A stretch of DNA of 64,000 bases from Veillonella sp. VA137 (GTDB taxonomy: Bacteria > Bacillota > Negativicutes > Veillonellales > Veillonellaceae). The notes under the pieces were generated by a model. That model had not been told where the DNA came from, did no database searches, and was given only the letters and a program-made list of their open reading frames with translations. A program made the translations under genes and the position numbers. Positions 5,529 to 47,392 of the stretch are shown piece by piece; the first letter of the stretch is position 1; each line of letters begins with the position of its first letter. The stretch is from assembly GCF_003992015.1 (NCBI RefSeq), contig NZ_RQVK01000003.1, positions 62,001-126,000 on the forward strand, written 5' to 3'.

Positions 5529-7067
5529 TTAACCCTCCTGGTTTCCAAACTCTTGTTCTAATTCTTTTGCTAAATAAATTGCGTTTACTGCGTTAATATA
5601 GGCATTCACACTAGATTTTACGATGTCTGTGCTAACACCACGACCTTGGAATCTGCGGCCATTGTAGTTGACTTTCACCACCGCTTCCCCAAGGGCATCC
5701 TTACCTACCGTTACAGAACGGATTTGGAAGTTTTCCAATACAAATGGTGTATTCACCAATCGTTCGATAGCTCTGAAAGAAGCATCTACTGGACCATCAC
5801 CAACAGCGGCATCCATGCGTTCCCCATTCGGAGTTAATACACGAATGCTAGCAAGCACGTATCCATTTTGATCGGAATGGTAATCGTGTTGTACCACGTG
5901 GAATGCTTGCTCGTGATGCATGGTATCCATCACCAAAGCGTAGATATCTTCATCGTAAACTTGTTTTTTCTTATCTGCTAAGGCTTTGAATTGAACGAAC
6001 AATTCATTCACTCGTTCTTCTTCTAACTGAAAGCCTAAATTCACTAAATGATCTTCAAAAGCATGACGGCCAGAATGTTTACCCAATACGATAGACGTTT
6101 TTTCTGCTCCTACACTAGCCGGTGTCATAATTTCGTACGTTGTAGGATTGTTCAACATACCATGTTGATGAATGCCAGACTCATGCGCGAAGGCATTGGC
6201 ACCTACGATAGCCTTATTAGGTGACACGGCAACACCGCAAAGTTTGCTCACCAATTTGCTAGTACGAGTGAATAGTGGTGTGTCGATGTGTACATCGAAT
6301 GGATAGTGATCATGGCGAGTTTTGATGGTCATTACGACTTCTTCGATAGCCACATTACCAGCTCGTTCTCCCAAGCCATTCATTGTACATTCCACTTGAC
6401 GAGCTCCCGCTTCGATAGCTGCCAACGTATTAGCATTGGCAAGGCCTAAGTCATTATGACAATGGACACTGATGATTGCCTTTTCGATACCTTTCGTATG
6501 TTCTTTAATGTAGCGAATACGATTACCAAACTCTTCTGGTGTCATGTAGCCTACTGTATCTGGTACATTCAAAATGGAAGCTCCACCTTCAATAGCCACT
6601 TCAAAGACACGACATAGATAATCTAAATCTGTACGAGATGCATCTTCTGCGGAGAACTCGATTTCATCAAATTTACCTTTCGCAAACTCAAGGATGTGTT
6701 TCACAATGTTTAACACTTCTTCACGAGTCTTTTTCAATTTATACTCTAAATGTATATCGCTAGTAGCGATAAACACATGTAGACGACTGCGCTCTGCGCC
6801 TACTAGTGCTTCTGCGGCTTTTGTCACGTCATTTTCATTAGATCGAGCAAGGGCTGCAATAGTACATCCACGTACTTCTTTAGCAATCGTAGCTACTGCT
6901 TCAAAGTCACCTTCTGATGCAGCTGGGAACCCCGCTTCGATGACATCTAATCCAAGGCGCACAAGGGCTTGTGCAATTTCTACTTTTTCTGGTGTTTGAA
7001 GGGACACACCCGGTGTTTGTTCCCCATCTCGAAGTGTTGTATCAAAAAAATAAATTCTATTGTTCAT
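5529..7067 (-). CDS. leuA: 2-isopropylmalate synthase
   Basis: Condenses acetyl-CoA with 2-oxoisovalerate, the first committed step of leucine synthesis. The 512 residues include the N-terminal TIM barrel with [14 protein letters not shown] (metal and substrate binding), the HCHNDLGLA metal-ligand motif, and a C-terminal regulatory domain (about residues 390-505) that binds leucine for feedback inhibition. It is the first gene of the operon. Its leader, more than 600 bases long, contains a leucine T-box (7501-7755) and a second terminator-like hairpin (7227-7265). Confidence 0.96.
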
Positions 7068-41389: not shown

Positions 41390-43672
41390 ATGAGCATTAT
41401 GATCAAGAAACGTGATGGCCATTATGAGCCATTGTCGGTAGAAAAAACGAAGAAAATGGTTGCCTTTGCTTGTTTAGGCTTAGACTCTTGTGACCCTATC
41501 GAGCTTGAAATGGACTGTAAATTGCAGTTCGTGGACGGCATGACTACGAAACAAATTCAACAAACTCTTGTTCAAACTGCCATCGAGAAAGTCATCCAAA
41601 AGGTAGACGATGGTTTTGGCAACATGGTAAACCGCATGAACCAAGATTGGCAATTCGTGGCTGCTCGTCTATACTTATTCGATTTATACAAAGAAGCTGC
41701 TATTAACCGCAAGTATAAAGCTTTTGGGTATGGCAACTTCACTAATTTAGTAAAAACCTTAGTTGCTGCTGGTCGCTATGCAGACTTTTTCTTAACACAA
41801 TATACAGAAGCTGAATTAGAAGAACTTGGCGACTATATCAAGCCGAAACGAGACTACTTGTTTAACTATGAAGGTATTAAACTATTAGCAGACCGTTATT
41901 TAGTAAAAGGCTTCAACAAAGAAATTTACGAACTTCCACAAGAGCGTTTCATGGCTATCGCTATGCATTTAGCTGTCATCGAAGGGGACAAAAAAGTTTA
42001 CTACGCTAAAAAGTTCTATGATTTGATGAGCGAGTTAAAGATGACTACTGCTACTCCAACATTGGCGAATGCTGGTACACCATTCCATCAACTAAGCTCT
42101 TGCTTTATTTCTGGTGTAGAAGATAATCTATGGTCCATTTACGATGTGAACGCAAAGTTCTCTCGTGTATCTAAGCATGGTGGCGCTCTTGGTATTTATC
42201 TTGGTAAAGTACGTGCCTTGAACTCCGACATCCGTGGCTATAAAAATTCTTCTGGCGGTGTCATCCCTTGGATTCGTTTATACAACGATACTGCCGTTGC
42301 CGTAGACCAGTTAGGAAAGCGTAAAGGTGGTGCTACGGTAACACTTGACGTGTGGCACAAAGATTTCTACGAATTTGTTGAACTTCGTACGAATAATGGT
42401 GATGACCGTCGTAAAGCGCACGACATCTTCCCTGCTCTATCTGTACCAGATATTTTCATGGAACGTGTTATCAACCGTGAGCACTTCACTTTATTCGACC
42501 CACATGAAGTATCTCGTGTGATGGGCTTTCAATTAGAAGACTATTACGATGACGATACGAATAAAGCTTTCACAGAAAAATATTTAGCTTGTGAAGCTAG
42601 TCCAGATCTACACGGCATCGAAGTCAGCGCTTTGGACATGATGAAAAAAATCATGCGTTCCGCTGTAGAAACAGGCACACCGTTCATCTTCTTCCGAGAT
42701 ACGACGAACCGTGCGAACCCTAATAAGCATGCAGGTATGATTTATGCGTCCAACCTGTGTCATGAAATTGCACAAAACGTTGGTTTCACTGATTTAGATG
42801 AAGAAATTATCCAAGACGATGGTTCCATCGTGACTCGTACGAAAGCGGGAGACATGGTAACGTGTAATTTGAACTCCATTAACTTGGGTAAAACATCTGA
42901 CGAAGAATTAGAGGAAAACATCGCTTTACAAGTGCGCATGTTGGATAATGTCATCACGATCAACCAATTCCCTGTGCCTGAAACTCGTGTAACTAGCGAA
43001 AAATATCGCGCTATCGGCCTTGGTACGAGCGGTTACCACCACTATTTGGTGAAACATAAAGTACAATGGGAAAGCGATGAGCATTTGGCTGTAGCTGATA
43101 CATTGTTTGAAAATATTGCCTACGCTGCCATCAAGGCATCCATGGAATTAGCGAAAGAAAAAGGTGCTTACCCTGCTTTCAAAGGTTCTCAATGGGAAAC
43201 GGGGGAATATTTTGAACGCCGTGGTTACACCTCTGAAAGGTGGCAACAACTGCGAGCAGATGTGGCAAAATACGGTATCCGTAACGGTTACTTAATGGCT
43301 ATCGCTCCAACAGGTAGTACATCCAACATCGCTAACACCACAGCTGGTATCGATCCTATCTTCAAAAAATTCTTCATTGAAGAAAAAAAAGGTAGTTTCA
43401 CTCCAAAAACAGCACCTGATTTGAGCAATGAAACCATGTGGTTCTACAAAGAAGCCCACACGATTGATCAACAATGGTCTATCAAGGCTTGCGGTATCCG
43501 CCAACGCCATATCGACCAAGCACAATCTTTCAATTTGTACATTACGCCACAAATGAAAGCGAAAGAAATTCTTGATTTATATGTGGAAGCGTATAAACAA
43601 GGCATTAAAACAATTTACTATATCCGTAACCAATCCTTAGAAATGGATGAATGCACTAGCTGTTCCTCCTAA
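41390..43672 (+). CDS. nrdA: Ribonucleoside-diphosphate reductase large subunit, class Ia
   Basis: Reduces ribonucleotides to deoxyribonucleotides. The 760 residues start with an ATP-cone (about 5-95, the allosteric activity switch). Catalytic landmarks are the redox Cys in HQLSSCF, NLCHEIAQN (radical Cys and Glu), VTCNLNSIN (second redox Cys), and the C-terminal CTSC pair that transfers electrons. A class I enzyme needs oxygen to form its radical, notable in an otherwise anaerobic gene set. Its partner nrdB lies 2.7 kb away instead of adjacent. GGGAG precedes the ATG. Confidence 0.95.
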   Translation: MSIMIKKRDGHYEPLSVEKTKKMVAFACLGLDSCDPIELEMDCKLQFVDGMTTKQIQQTLVQTAIEKVIQKVDDGFGNMVNRMNQDWQFVAARLYLFDLYKEAAINRKYKAFGYGNFTNLVKTLVAAGRYADFFLTQYTEAELEELGDYIKPKRDYLFNYEGIKLLADRYLVKGFNKEIYELPQERFMAIAMHLAVIEGDKKVYYAKKFYDLMSELKMTTATPTLANAGTPFHQLSSCFISGVEDNLWSIYDVNAKFSRVSKHGGALGIYLGKVRALNSDIRGYKNSSGGVIPWIRLYNDTAVAVDQLGKRKGGATVTLDVWHKDFYEFVELRTNNGDDRRKAHDIFPALSVPDIFMERVINREHFTLFDPHEVSRVMGFQLEDYYDDDTNKAFTEKYLACEASPDLHGIEVSALDMMKKIMRSAVETGTPFIFFRDTTNRANPNKHAGMIYASNLCHEIAQNVGFTDLDEEIIQDDGSIVTRTKAGDMVTCNLNSINLGKTSDEELEENIALQVRMLDNVITINQFPVPETRVTSEKYRAIGLGTSGYHHYLVKHKVQWESDEHLAVADTLFENIAYAAIKASMELAKEKGAYPAFKGSQWETGEYFERRGYTSERWQQLRADVAKYGIRNGYLMAIAPTGSTSNIANTTAGIDPIFKKFFIEEKKGSFTPKTAPDLSNETMWFYKEAHTIDQQWSIKACGIRQRHIDQAQSFNLYITPQMKAKEILDLYVEAYKQGIKTIYYIRNQSLEMDECTSCSS

Positions 43673-43855: not shown

Positions 43856-43963
43856 AGTTTCTATCATTAAACTATTCTCAGCAAGTTTTCAGCCTCAAGA
43901 ACGCAACTAGATTTGATACAGTGGGTAAATAAACTTAAAATCGATGAAAAATTAGTCATCATT
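43856..43963 (+). pseudogene. Decayed fragment of a DUF4143-type ATPase gene
   Basis: The stretch encodes QQVFSLKNATRFDTVGK followed by frameshifted KLKIDEKL. It matches the intact neighbour's QQAFILKKVSRFDTVGK and LKIDEKYY (DNA 45318-45395). Stops and gaps break it. It is the leftover of a second copy of the ATPase now found at 44544. Confidence 0.7.
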
Positions 43964-44129: not shown

Positions 44130-44207
44130 CTATTTTACAAGATCAATGATTTGAATTGCTAAACTAATAATAGAAATGACTAAAGTAATCTTTTCATATT
44201 TTGTCAT
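44130..44207 (-). CDS. Holin-like type I toxin, 25 residues
   Basis: A tiny hydrophobic peptide, MTKYEKITLVISIISLAIQ followed by IIDLVK. It has one membrane span and a short polar N-terminus, as in putative holin-like toxins (TxpA/BsrE group). A very strong ribosome site, GGGAGGAGGTGG, lies just before the ATG, and a TATAAT -10 at 44276-44281 gives a leader of about 60 bases. The mRNA's 3' part contains ACCACCTC, perfectly complementary to GAGGTGGT in the ribosome site, so the full-length message could hide its own start. The overlapping antisense RNA is the probable antitoxin. Confidence 0.65.
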   Translation of the reverse strand: MTKYEKITLVISIISLAIQIIDLVK

Positions 44208-44343: not shown

Positions 44344-44521
44344 TTTCGTTTATAATCGAAACTATACTAGTATACCTTAATACTTTCGAGTATAGTCGAA
44401 ATGATATACATAAACTCTAATAATTTCGAGTGTAGTCGAAATCACTTGCAAAACATACATATATTTCGACTATAATCGAAATTAGCATTGGAATCTTTCA
44501 TTGTTTCGAGTATAATAAAAT
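44344..44521. repeat. Five palindromes at an exact 40-bp period
   Basis: Eighteen-base palindromes of the form TTTCGAnTATAnTCGAAA start at 44344, 44384, 44424, 44464 and 44504. The 22-base spacers have unrelated sequences. The last copy is degenerate on its right side (TTTCGAGTATAATAAAAT) and supplies the -10 of the ATPase promoter. This looks like a multi-site operator. Confidence 0.85.
44488..44516 (+). promoter_or_regulatory. Promoter of the DUF4143-type ATPase gene
   Basis: TTGGAA (44488-44493) and TATAAT (44511-44516) are 17 bases apart. The -10 lies inside the fifth palindrome of the upstream array, so a protein bound there would block RNA polymerase. Confidence 0.7.
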
Positions 44522-44543
44522 CAATGAAAGCGAGGTGTTAGCT

Positions 44544-45752
44544 ATGGAATATATTAAACGCCCTAAGTACTTAACCCAAATAGAACCATTCATTGATAAG
44601 CCTGTAATTAAAATTCTCACAGGTATGCGCCGTGTTGGGAAATCTACTTTATTAACGATCATCAAAGATACCATCTTACAAGAAGTATCTGATGAACGCA
44701 AAGTTTATATTAACTTTGAATCCTTAGAATTTTTAGAGATAAACAATGCCACATTATTGGCAAAATATCTCATAGAAACAACAAAGCACTTGGATGGGAA
44801 GCTTTACTATTTCTTTGACGAGATACAGTTAGTGGAAGATTGGGAAAAAGTTGTAAATGGTCTACGTGTTGGTAAAGATTGCGACATCTATATTACTGGT
44901 TCCAACTCCACCTTAATCTCTGGCGAACTTGCTACACTTCTTGCTGGCAGATATGTAGAGTTTGAAATACAGCCATTTACATTTGATGAGTTTATTGAAG
45001 TATTCCAAGAGAAACCCCTGAGTAAGGAAGAGCTGTTCACTAAGTTTATCCAATTAGGTGGCATGCCTACCTTAAAATACTTTAACTTAGAAGAAAATAG
45101 TAGTTATAAATATCTAAATGATGTGTATCATACGGTTTTGATCAAAGACGTATTGACACACAATAAAATTCGCGATGTGGATATTTTCAATCGAATCCTA
45201 TCATTTACTATACAAAATATAGGGTCCCCCGTTTCTGCAACTAGTATTAAAAAATATTTAAAGAGCGAGCATCGGGATGTTTCCATTGATACTATACTGA
45301 ATTATTTAGACTATTGTCAGCAAGCTTTCATCCTAAAAAAGGTGTCTAGATTTGATACGGTCGGTAAAAAGAATCTTAAAATTGATGAAAAATATTACCT
45401 TACGGATCATGGATTTCGGGCTGCCAAAGGGTATTCTAATACGAAAGATATTGAAAGAACCCTGGAAAATATCATATATATTGAGCTAATTTCTAGAGGA
45501 TATACCGTAGAAATTGGGAAGGTAAAAGATATGGAAATCGACTTTATTGCTACGAAGGATAAAGAACGAGTATACTATCAAGTGTCCTATCTTATGGAAA
45601 CAGAAGCTACACGACAACGTGAATTTGGTGTGTATGCGCATGTACAAGATAATTACCCTAAATTTGTTCTCTCCATGGATACCGTTGACTTTAGCCAAGA
45701 TGGAATCGTTCACAAACATGTGATTGATTTCTTGTTGGAAAACAGTTTATAA
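44544..45752 (+). CDS. AAA ATPase with DUF4143 (archaeal-type ATPase/nuclease family)
   Basis: A 402-residue protein starting MEYIKRPKYL at 44544, with GAGGTG six bases upstream; the GTG at 44535 is less likely. Residues 20-160 form the AAA domain: Walker A LTGMRRVGKSTLL, Walker B YYFFDEIQ, and the conserved ITGSNSTLISGELATLLAGRY segment. The C-terminal half is DUF4143, with LGGMPTLKYF and a nuclease-like core (EIGKVKDMEIDFIATKD ... YYQVSY). The family is common in bacteria, often near toxin-antitoxin genes, and its cellular role is unclear. A palindrome array precedes it and a decayed paralogue lies at 43856. Confidence 0.85.
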   Translation: MEYIKRPKYLTQIEPFIDKPVIKILTGMRRVGKSTLLTIIKDTILQEVSDERKVYINFESLEFLEINNATLLAKYLIETTKHLDGKLYYFFDEIQLVEDWEKVVNGLRVGKDCDIYITGSNSTLISGELATLLAGRYVEFEIQPFTFDEFIEVFQEKPLSKEELFTKFIQLGGMPTLKYFNLEENSSYKYLNDVYHTVLIKDVLTHNKIRDVDIFNRILSFTIQNIGSPVSATSIKKYLKSEHRDVSIDTILNYLDYCQQAFILKKVSRFDTVGKKNLKIDEKYYLTDHGFRAAKGYSNTKDIERTLENIIYIELISRGYTVEIGKVKDMEIDFIATKDKERVYYQVSYLMETEATRQREFGVYAHVQDNYPKFVLSMDTVDFSQDGIVHKHVIDFLLENSL

Positions 45753-46363: not shown

Positions 46364-47392
46364 ATGGAAAAGAAACTGATTTTTAATGAACATGGTGACC
46401 GTGGCACGCAAAGTATGGTGGGCGGTAATACGACGAATTTACGGGAATGGAATCGTATTAAGTACGATTGGGCGAATACATTGTATCGCACGATGCTGAA
46501 CAATTTCTGGATTCCTGAAGAAATTTCTTTGAACGAAGATATTAAGCAATTCCCTTATTTAACGGACAGCGAGCGCCGTGCATTTGACAAAATTATTTCC
46601 TTCTTAAACTTCTTGGACTCCATTCAAAGCGAGAACTTGCCAAACTTAAGCCGTTATATTACAGCATCTGAAGTGGCTTCTTTATTGAATATCCAAGCAT
46701 TCCAAGAAGAAATTCACGCTCAATCCTATTCTTATATTTTGGATACGGTAACGAATCCAATTACTCGTGACCGCATTTATGATGAGTGGCGTACAGACGA
46801 GCATTTATTGGCTCGTAACCGTTTCATCGCCGACATTTACCAACGCTTCAGTGATGAACCATCAGAACACAATTTGATCCGTACAATCATGGCGAATTAC
46901 ATCTTAGAAGGCATTTATTTCTACTCTGGATTTAGCTTCTTCTACACATTGGCTCGCCAAGGCAAAATGACTGCTACTTCCACAATCTTTAAATATATCA
47001 ATCGTGACGAAGTAACTCACTTAGTATTGTTCCAAAACATTATCCGTGAACTTCGCATCGAACGCCCTGAATTATTCACTGCTGAACTAGAAGCTGAGTT
47101 AACACAAATGCTTCGTGAAGGTACTGAAAATGAAATTGCTTGGGGCCAATACATCACTGATGACAAAATCTTGGGCATCAACAACACATTAATCGAACGC
47201 TACATCAAATACTTAGCGAACCAACGTGCTGATTCCATCGGCTTGCAACCATTATATCCAGACATCAAGGAAAATCCTATGGCTTGGATTGAAAGTTTCT
47301 CCAACTTGAACAGCACAAAAACTGACTTCTTTGAGGCGAAAGTTACAAACTATACAAAAGCTGCTGCATTCGATTTCGACGATTTGGAGTAA
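46364..47392 (+). CDS. nrdB: Ribonucleoside-diphosphate reductase small subunit, class Ia
   Basis: Carries the di-iron centre and tyrosyl radical for NrdA. The start at 46364 (MEKKLIFNEHG, 342 residues) follows AGGAG; the frame extends upstream to 46292 without a site. Ligand-bearing helices are visible: LDSIQSENL, EEIHAQSYSYI (with the likely radical Tyr), NYILEGIYFY and NRDEVTHLVLF. The gene has its own upstream region and is separated from nrdA by accessory DNA. A terminator follows at 47418. Confidence 0.95.
   Translation: MEKKLIFNEHGDRGTQSMVGGNTTNLREWNRIKYDWANTLYRTMLNNFWIPEEISLNEDIKQFPYLTDSERRAFDKIISFLNFLDSIQSENLPNLSRYITASEVASLLNIQAFQEEIHAQSYSYILDTVTNPITRDRIYDEWRTDEHLLARNRFIADIYQRFSDEPSEHNLIRTIMANYILEGIYFYSGFSFFYTLARQGKMTATSTIFKYINRDEVTHLVLFQNIIRELRIERPELFTAELEAELTQMLREGTENEIAWGQYITDDKILGINNTLIERYIKYLANQRADSIGLQPLYPDIKENPMAWIESFSNLNSTKTDFFEAKVTNYTKAAAFDFDDLE

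Follow-up and report, generated by a model that had tools for sequence, protein, structure and literature searches.

A palindrome array with a 40-bp period overlaps the promoter of a DUF4143 ATPase gene in Veillonella and is probably a cooperative auto-operator

The question raised by the locus studied here is which protein reads a set of five evenly spaced palindromes that lie directly ahead of a DUF4143 ATPase gene in Veillonella sp. VA137. The window, by which we mean the whole stretch of DNA that was analysed, comprises 64,000 nucleotides, and the array occupies a chromosomal gap adjoining nrdA, in a metabolic neighbourhood where the ATPase gene is flanked by nrdA (41390-43672) and nrdB (46364-47392). 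An earlier, sequence-only reading had placed the palindromes at an exact period of 40 bp, and had proposed that they form a cooperative operator, perhaps read by the ATPase itself. The features on which the argument turns are the following.

44344..44361, no strand: putative operator palindrome 1, TTTCGTTTATAATCGAAA, farthest from the gene and without a fifth-site counterpart in five other Veillonella genomes
44384..44401, no strand: putative operator palindrome 2, TTTCGAGTATAGTCGAAA
44424..44441, no strand: putative operator palindrome 3, TTTCGAGTGTAGTCGAAA
44464..44481, no strand: putative operator palindrome 4, TTTCGACTATAATCGAAA
44504..44521, no strand: putative operator palindrome 5, with a degenerate right arm, including the -10 hexamer
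44488..44516, plus strand: ATPase gene promoter, TTGGAA-17-TATAAT, 10 of 12 consensus bases
44532..44537, plus strand: probable ribosome-binding site GAGGTG, read from the sequence
44544..45752, plus strand: AAA_14/DUF4143 STAND-like ATPase of 402 aa, with an NBD, a winged helix and a C-terminal PD-(D/E)XK-fold domain
45279..45314, plus strand: predicted recognition helix of the winged-helix domain (codons 246-257), VSIDTILNYLDY, assigned from secondary structure and operator-core covariation

Both the positions of the palindromes and their exact period were borne out by the site search and the shuffles. The five copies of TTTCGAnTATAnTCGAAA begin at 44344, 44384, 44424, 44464 and 44504 (successive intervals of 40, 40, 40 and 40 bp), with 1, 0, 1, 0 and 3 mismatches, respectively; 0.45 matches are expected, and none of 100 shuffles reached five. 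Chance or low complexity as the source of the array was ruled out by these shuffles together with the control genes described below. The proposal that the last site contains the -10 of the ATPase promoter also holds: the -35 hexamer TTGGAA (44488-44493) falls in the spacer that separates site 4 from site 5, and the -10 hexamer TATAAT (44511-44516) falls within site 5, whose right arm is degenerate in the window as well as in the relatives. The regularly spaced palindromes, several in number, overlap the promoter of the ATPase gene itself, the final promoter base (44516) lying 28 bp ahead of the ATG at 44544 that is most likely the start codon. A second array was not found elsewhere in the same genome, where scattered matches with three mismatches are no commoner than those to a reversed control pattern, which indicates that the target of the array is the ATPase gene itself. 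The 40-bp period had also been equated with about four helical turns and taken as evidence of selection on one face of the DNA. At 10.5 bp per turn, however, it corresponds to 3.8 turns of B-DNA, so that the phasing is regular but successive sites are not exactly on one face, and that argument is imprecise.

The array has been retained within the genus. The gene (92-97% identical) and its array are present in all five other Veillonella genomes compared, each with four sites whose positions relative to the start codon are -160, -120, -80 and -40; the fifth site, at -200, is in the window and in none of these five. The spacing is exactly 40 bp throughout all six genomes, and the proximal site reads TTTCGAGTATAATAGAAT in four of the other five and CTTCGAGTATAATAGAAT, with C as its first base, in the remaining one. 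Variable spacing, or loss of the array with retention of the gene, had been named as observations that would speak against an operator; both were looked for within the genus, and neither was seen in the six genomes. The spacers had been described as unrelated in sequence, and those within the array do differ from one another, but orthologous ones can be aligned in part from one Veillonella genome to another. Among 398 sampled genomes of the phylum, the exact array occurs in one, its own, and the phage collection contains no similar DNA; the idea that the exact array came from a phage or plasmid was rejected on these grounds.

The DNA upstream of the array has features of its own. The remnant of a second DUF4143 gene, decayed and interrupted by stops, is located at 43867-43952 and shares 81% identity over 88 bp with nucleotides 763-850 of the intact gene. 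On the minus strand, 44133-44207 encodes a hydrophobic peptide of 25 aa, MTKYEKITLVISIISLAIQIIDLVK, preceded by a strong Shine-Dalgarno-like stretch and by a divergent promoter-like sequence, TTAACG-18-TATAAT, at 44305-44276. The peptide has no Pfam match and has the appearance of a type I toxin-like peptide. In some other Veillonella genomes, too, the array is preceded by DNA similar to this region.

The ATPase contains the Pfam domains AAA_14 (PF13173) and DUF4143 (PF13635), and the PADLOC PDC-S01 profile PDLC04787 matches residues 1-400 of its 402 residues (E 4.3e-149); searches for an NCBIfam match and for PDB relatives by sequence returned none. In the AF2 model (pLDDT 90.5, pTM 0.90), a STAND/Orc1-like NBD is followed by a winged helix (helices 212-224, 232-241 and 248-260; wing 264-286) and then by the C-terminal domain, the NBD and winged helix being arranged as in STAND ATPases of the SSO1545 type. 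The top structural matches of the whole protein are SSO1545 (2fna, Z 16.8) and PAB2304 (2qen, Z 16.7), over 265-266 residues, and NLR/CED-4 NBDs come next. Modelled alone, the C-terminal domain matches McrC, Can2/Card1, Hjc, TnsA, FokI and other PD-(D/E)XK nucleases (Z 6.8-9.4). Glu308, Asp333 and Gln346 of this domain are nearly invariant across the family; Gln replaces the usual Glu and is followed by no conserved Lys (Q346-V-S), because of which nuclease activity appears doubtful or atypical.

Arrays of this kind are a trait of the family. Palindromic repeats that beat all 60 shuffles are present upstream of 81 of 124 DUF4143 genes from bacteria, archaea and phages, a significant array going undetected by the palindrome scan, whose power is limited in AT-rich regions, in about one third of the homologues. 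By comparison, 9 of 150 control genes (other genes of the same loci) beat their shuffles, none of them with a period of 32-34 or 39-42 bp. Over the 124 loci scanned, the palindromic arrays have periods of 23 bp (n=10), 32-34 bp (n=35) and 39-42 bp (n=31). Direct repeats at a lag of 23, 32/33 or 39-41 bp likewise occur upstream of homologues of many phyla: a strong repeat at a class lag is found in 52% of 77 homologues, the corresponding figures being 3.1% for shuffles and 3.7% for control windows taken within these loci. The proximal copy ends approximately 15-45 bp from the start codon in most loci, and the DUF4143 genes preceded by arrays come from many phyla, archaea included, and from phage contigs and plasmids as well as chromosomes.

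The period is a trait of the protein clade, since the period class changes 8 times on a tree of 79 proteins, compared with 33.2 times when labels are shuffled. The Veillonella/Dialister-type clade, to which homologues on phage contigs also belong, makes up the 40-bp class; the 33-bp class consists mainly of Clostridia, Erysipelotrichia, Coriobacteria, Lactobacillus and Treponema, and the 23-bp class of DPANN archaea and Crocinitomicaceae. Because different clades use 23, 32-33 and 40 bp, a general rule of strict helical phasing in four turns was discarded. Within the 40-bp clade the palindromes themselves vary and include TTTCGAnTATAnTCGAAA, TTAGGTTTTAAAACCTAA, TTGGAATGGAATCCAA, TTTGGAGTGTACTCCAAA and TTGCATTnnAATGCAA, while the period stays constant, as would be expected if the distance were dictated by the protein body and the sequence by a DNA-binding element that evolves fast. 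A relative of the ATPase is encoded by 240 records of the plasmid collection, and Acinetobacter accounts for 175 of these.

The operator sequence follows the predicted recognition helix of the protein whose gene it precedes, a covariation that is partly confounded by clade, phylogeny not being fully separated from it. In the 40-bp clade, two recognition-helix residues, D249 and Y257, are the best predictors of the core dinucleotide among 313 alignment columns, and in the combined set Y257 ranks first and D249 second of 328 columns. In the 33-bp clade, helix columns 246 and 248 rank second for the inner base and fourth for the outer base, respectively, of 272. Pairs of helix and palindrome include ISKDS with TGTCGAnTATAnTCGACA, ISTDS with ATCGAnTATAnTCGAT, TSTDS with TTATCGTnTnnAnACGATAA and VSIDT with TTTCGAnTATAnTCGAAA. 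Three viral contigs (L120, L129 and L181) that were retrieved by the DNA pattern alone carry DUF4143 genes, with the helix TTSDTIDNY, which closely resembles VSIDTILNY here. Clade-specific columns that lie outside the helix are equally good or better predictors of the outer base (position 8), and sliding-window partial correlations are weak (~0.2), with seven of the eight top windows in the winged helix.

A hold-out set of 18 loci from plasmids and phage records, for which the prediction was fixed before retrieval, served to check period and core. The best period was 39-42 bp in 11 of the 18 loci (null 15%, P 1.2e-5), and the six loci that beat all 60 shuffles each had a period of 39-42 bp. 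Both informative Asp-249 proteins, encoded by Ilyobacter and Peptoclostridium plasmids, have TTTCGA sites with the predicted CG core. The rule that K gives GG failed at loci L240 and L250, the rule that R gives GC had no clear outcome at L236, and three Glu-249 proteins (L227, L234 and L243) share an ATCAG-type half-site that lies outside the prediction. As the Asp-249 prediction came true and the Lys rule failed, a residue-to-base recognition code is real in part but not complete. A general recognition code was rejected, being only partly predictive in the column rankings, the hold-out loci and the sliding windows.

Taken together, these observations suggest that the array is probably a cooperative auto-operator bound by the winged helix of the DUF4143 ATPase itself, probably in an autorepressing manner. 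The earlier proposal of a cooperative operator, perhaps read by the ATPase, is thus the best-supported reading, by virtue of family recurrence, period by clade and covariation of core and helix: the ATPase is indicated as the reader because arrays accompany most DUF4143 genes in unrelated genomic settings and because the core follows the helix of the same protein. We propose that the winged-helix domains of two ATPase protomers would bind each palindrome, one per half-site, and that adjacent bound dimers would touch via the rest of the protein, which would fix the centre-to-centre distance (40, 32-33 or 23 bp, according to clade). At the Veillonella locus, the chain of bound protein would extend into the promoter, with its -35 between sites 4 and 5 and its -10 inside site 5, and would exclude RNA polymerase, so that the ATPase would repress its own gene. 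Repression rather than activation is favoured here since autorepression would be the simplest outcome of cooperative self-binding that reaches into the promoter. A change in nucleotide or oligomeric state, for which phage infection is a possible trigger, might then release or rearrange the chain.

The array could instead be the operator of a separate regulator encoded elsewhere, with the ATPase gene merely regulated by it. Palindromes overlapping a promoter would fit any dimeric repressor equally well, and the confounding of the helix covariation by clade leaves some room for such a protein. However, this regulator would have to accompany every copy of the gene, in archaea and across many phyla, whether the copy is on a chromosome, a plasmid or a phage contig, and to shift its specificity in step with the recognition helix of the ATPase, while no conserved neighbour gene was found in the stretches examined; we consider it unlikely. 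Less probable still is an origin-like or initiator role, in which a selfish gene that encodes a nuclease domain would use the array for its replication, transposition or homing. Orc1/Cdc6-like ATPases bind repeats near their own gene, and the resemblance extends to the AAA+ NBD followed by a winged helix; the PD-(D/E)XK fold of the C-terminal domain, the decayed fragment of a second copy just upstream and the frequency of homologues on plasmids and phage contigs would also suit a selfish gene. Unlike Orc1/Cdc6, on the other hand, the family is chromosomal, multi-copy and equipped with a nuclease-fold domain, and has no replicon context. Several divergent paralogues are present per genome at ordinary chromosomal places, the array overlaps the promoter and has no counterpart on the far side of the gene, neither terminal repeats nor a target duplication came to notice, and the nuclease-like motif has Gln for Glu with no following Lys.

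Two further readings are highly improbable. The sequence-only reading had allowed for a partition- or silencing-type array, and regular sites beside an ATPase gene do recall parC/parS arrays. This centromere-like alternative found no support: the chromosome has a single array, set in a metabolic neighbourhood next to nrdA and tight to a promoter, the ATPase is STAND/AAA-like rather than ParA, ParM or TubZ, and a small adaptor gene is absent between array and ATPase. Tandem repeats preceding a gene might equally bring to mind an element that acts at the RNA level, such as type III toxin-antitoxin repeats, a CRISPR-like element or a riboswitch, but the chances of this are just as slight, given that the sole good sense-strand promoter is at the last repeat, which leaves the array mostly outside the mRNA. 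Moreover, there is no Rfam match, the repeats vary and the spacers have no common unit. A type III toxin-antitoxin system of the ToxIN type was specifically rejected from the position of the promoter at the last repeat and from the absence of a terminator between array and gene.

How does the auto-operator proposed here relate to known systems? PDC-S01 has been described as an AAA ATPase fused to PD-(D/E)XK and as a PADLOC phage-defence candidate (PMC12988326); the ATPase studied here matches its profile over the full length and has the same domain make-up, whereas no operator array, winged-helix specificity or autoregulation is described for PDC-S01 in the open-access literature searched. The archaeal STAND-type ATPases SSO1545 and PAB2304 are the closest in fold, but share only 20% and 18% identity, respectively, with the ATPase over aligned residues. 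We know of no operator array for either of them. MalT and IniR are also STAND ATPase regulators in which an NTPase is combined with a DNA-binding domain that acts at promoters, and a MalT-type structure (8bob) ranks third in the Foldseek search with the ATPase model. IniR binds the iniBAC promoter and was compared with SSO1545 by its authors (PMC5760070). MalT and IniR, however, control other operons via a C-terminal HTH, while the only target found for the ATPase is its own promoter and its predicted DNA-binding element is the central winged helix.

PDC-S01/DUF4143 ATPases are reported to be the fourth most common prokaryotic defence candidate, with 29,494 in bacteria and 9,986 in archaea (PMC12988326), and a limited search of the open-access literature found no described function for them. 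According to published surveys, most such candidates, PDC-S01 included, await validation (PMC12988326), for which reason a defence role of the ATPase is treated here as a hypothesis. The arrays provide the first concrete handle found here, as the putative DNA target of each member can be read from its own promoter, the fixed geometry would report on the oligomer, and one helix holds a partial recognition code. DNA binding, autoregulation and triggering thereby become directly testable in any member, and the array signature can be used to look for phage counter-measures.

A search of viral contigs with the 16-mer core yielded 71 stretches. Intergenic pairs of TTTCGA-type sites exactly 40 bp apart occur in three of the contigs (L142:824-881, L153:1614-1671 and L160, about 6977-7034), of which L142 and L153 are related phages; no DUF4143 gene was found in these three records, which may be fragments. 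The pair in L153, as in L142, lies between convergent genes, where a promoter operator is not expected. It might be speculated that a defence ATPase rests, already armed, as the chain bound to DNA and that isolated operator pairs serve some phages as decoys against it, although we regard this as improbable. Paired sites for the motifs of the 33-bp clade were not found in the viral contigs, which indicates that a decoy would not be general, and three relatives of the L142 and L153 phages (L254-L256) do not have the pair. Near-copy pairs 40 bp apart, with one copy having four mismatches, were also seen inside phage coding sequence (L144:66-123 and L171:1510-1567), and these may be due to chance.
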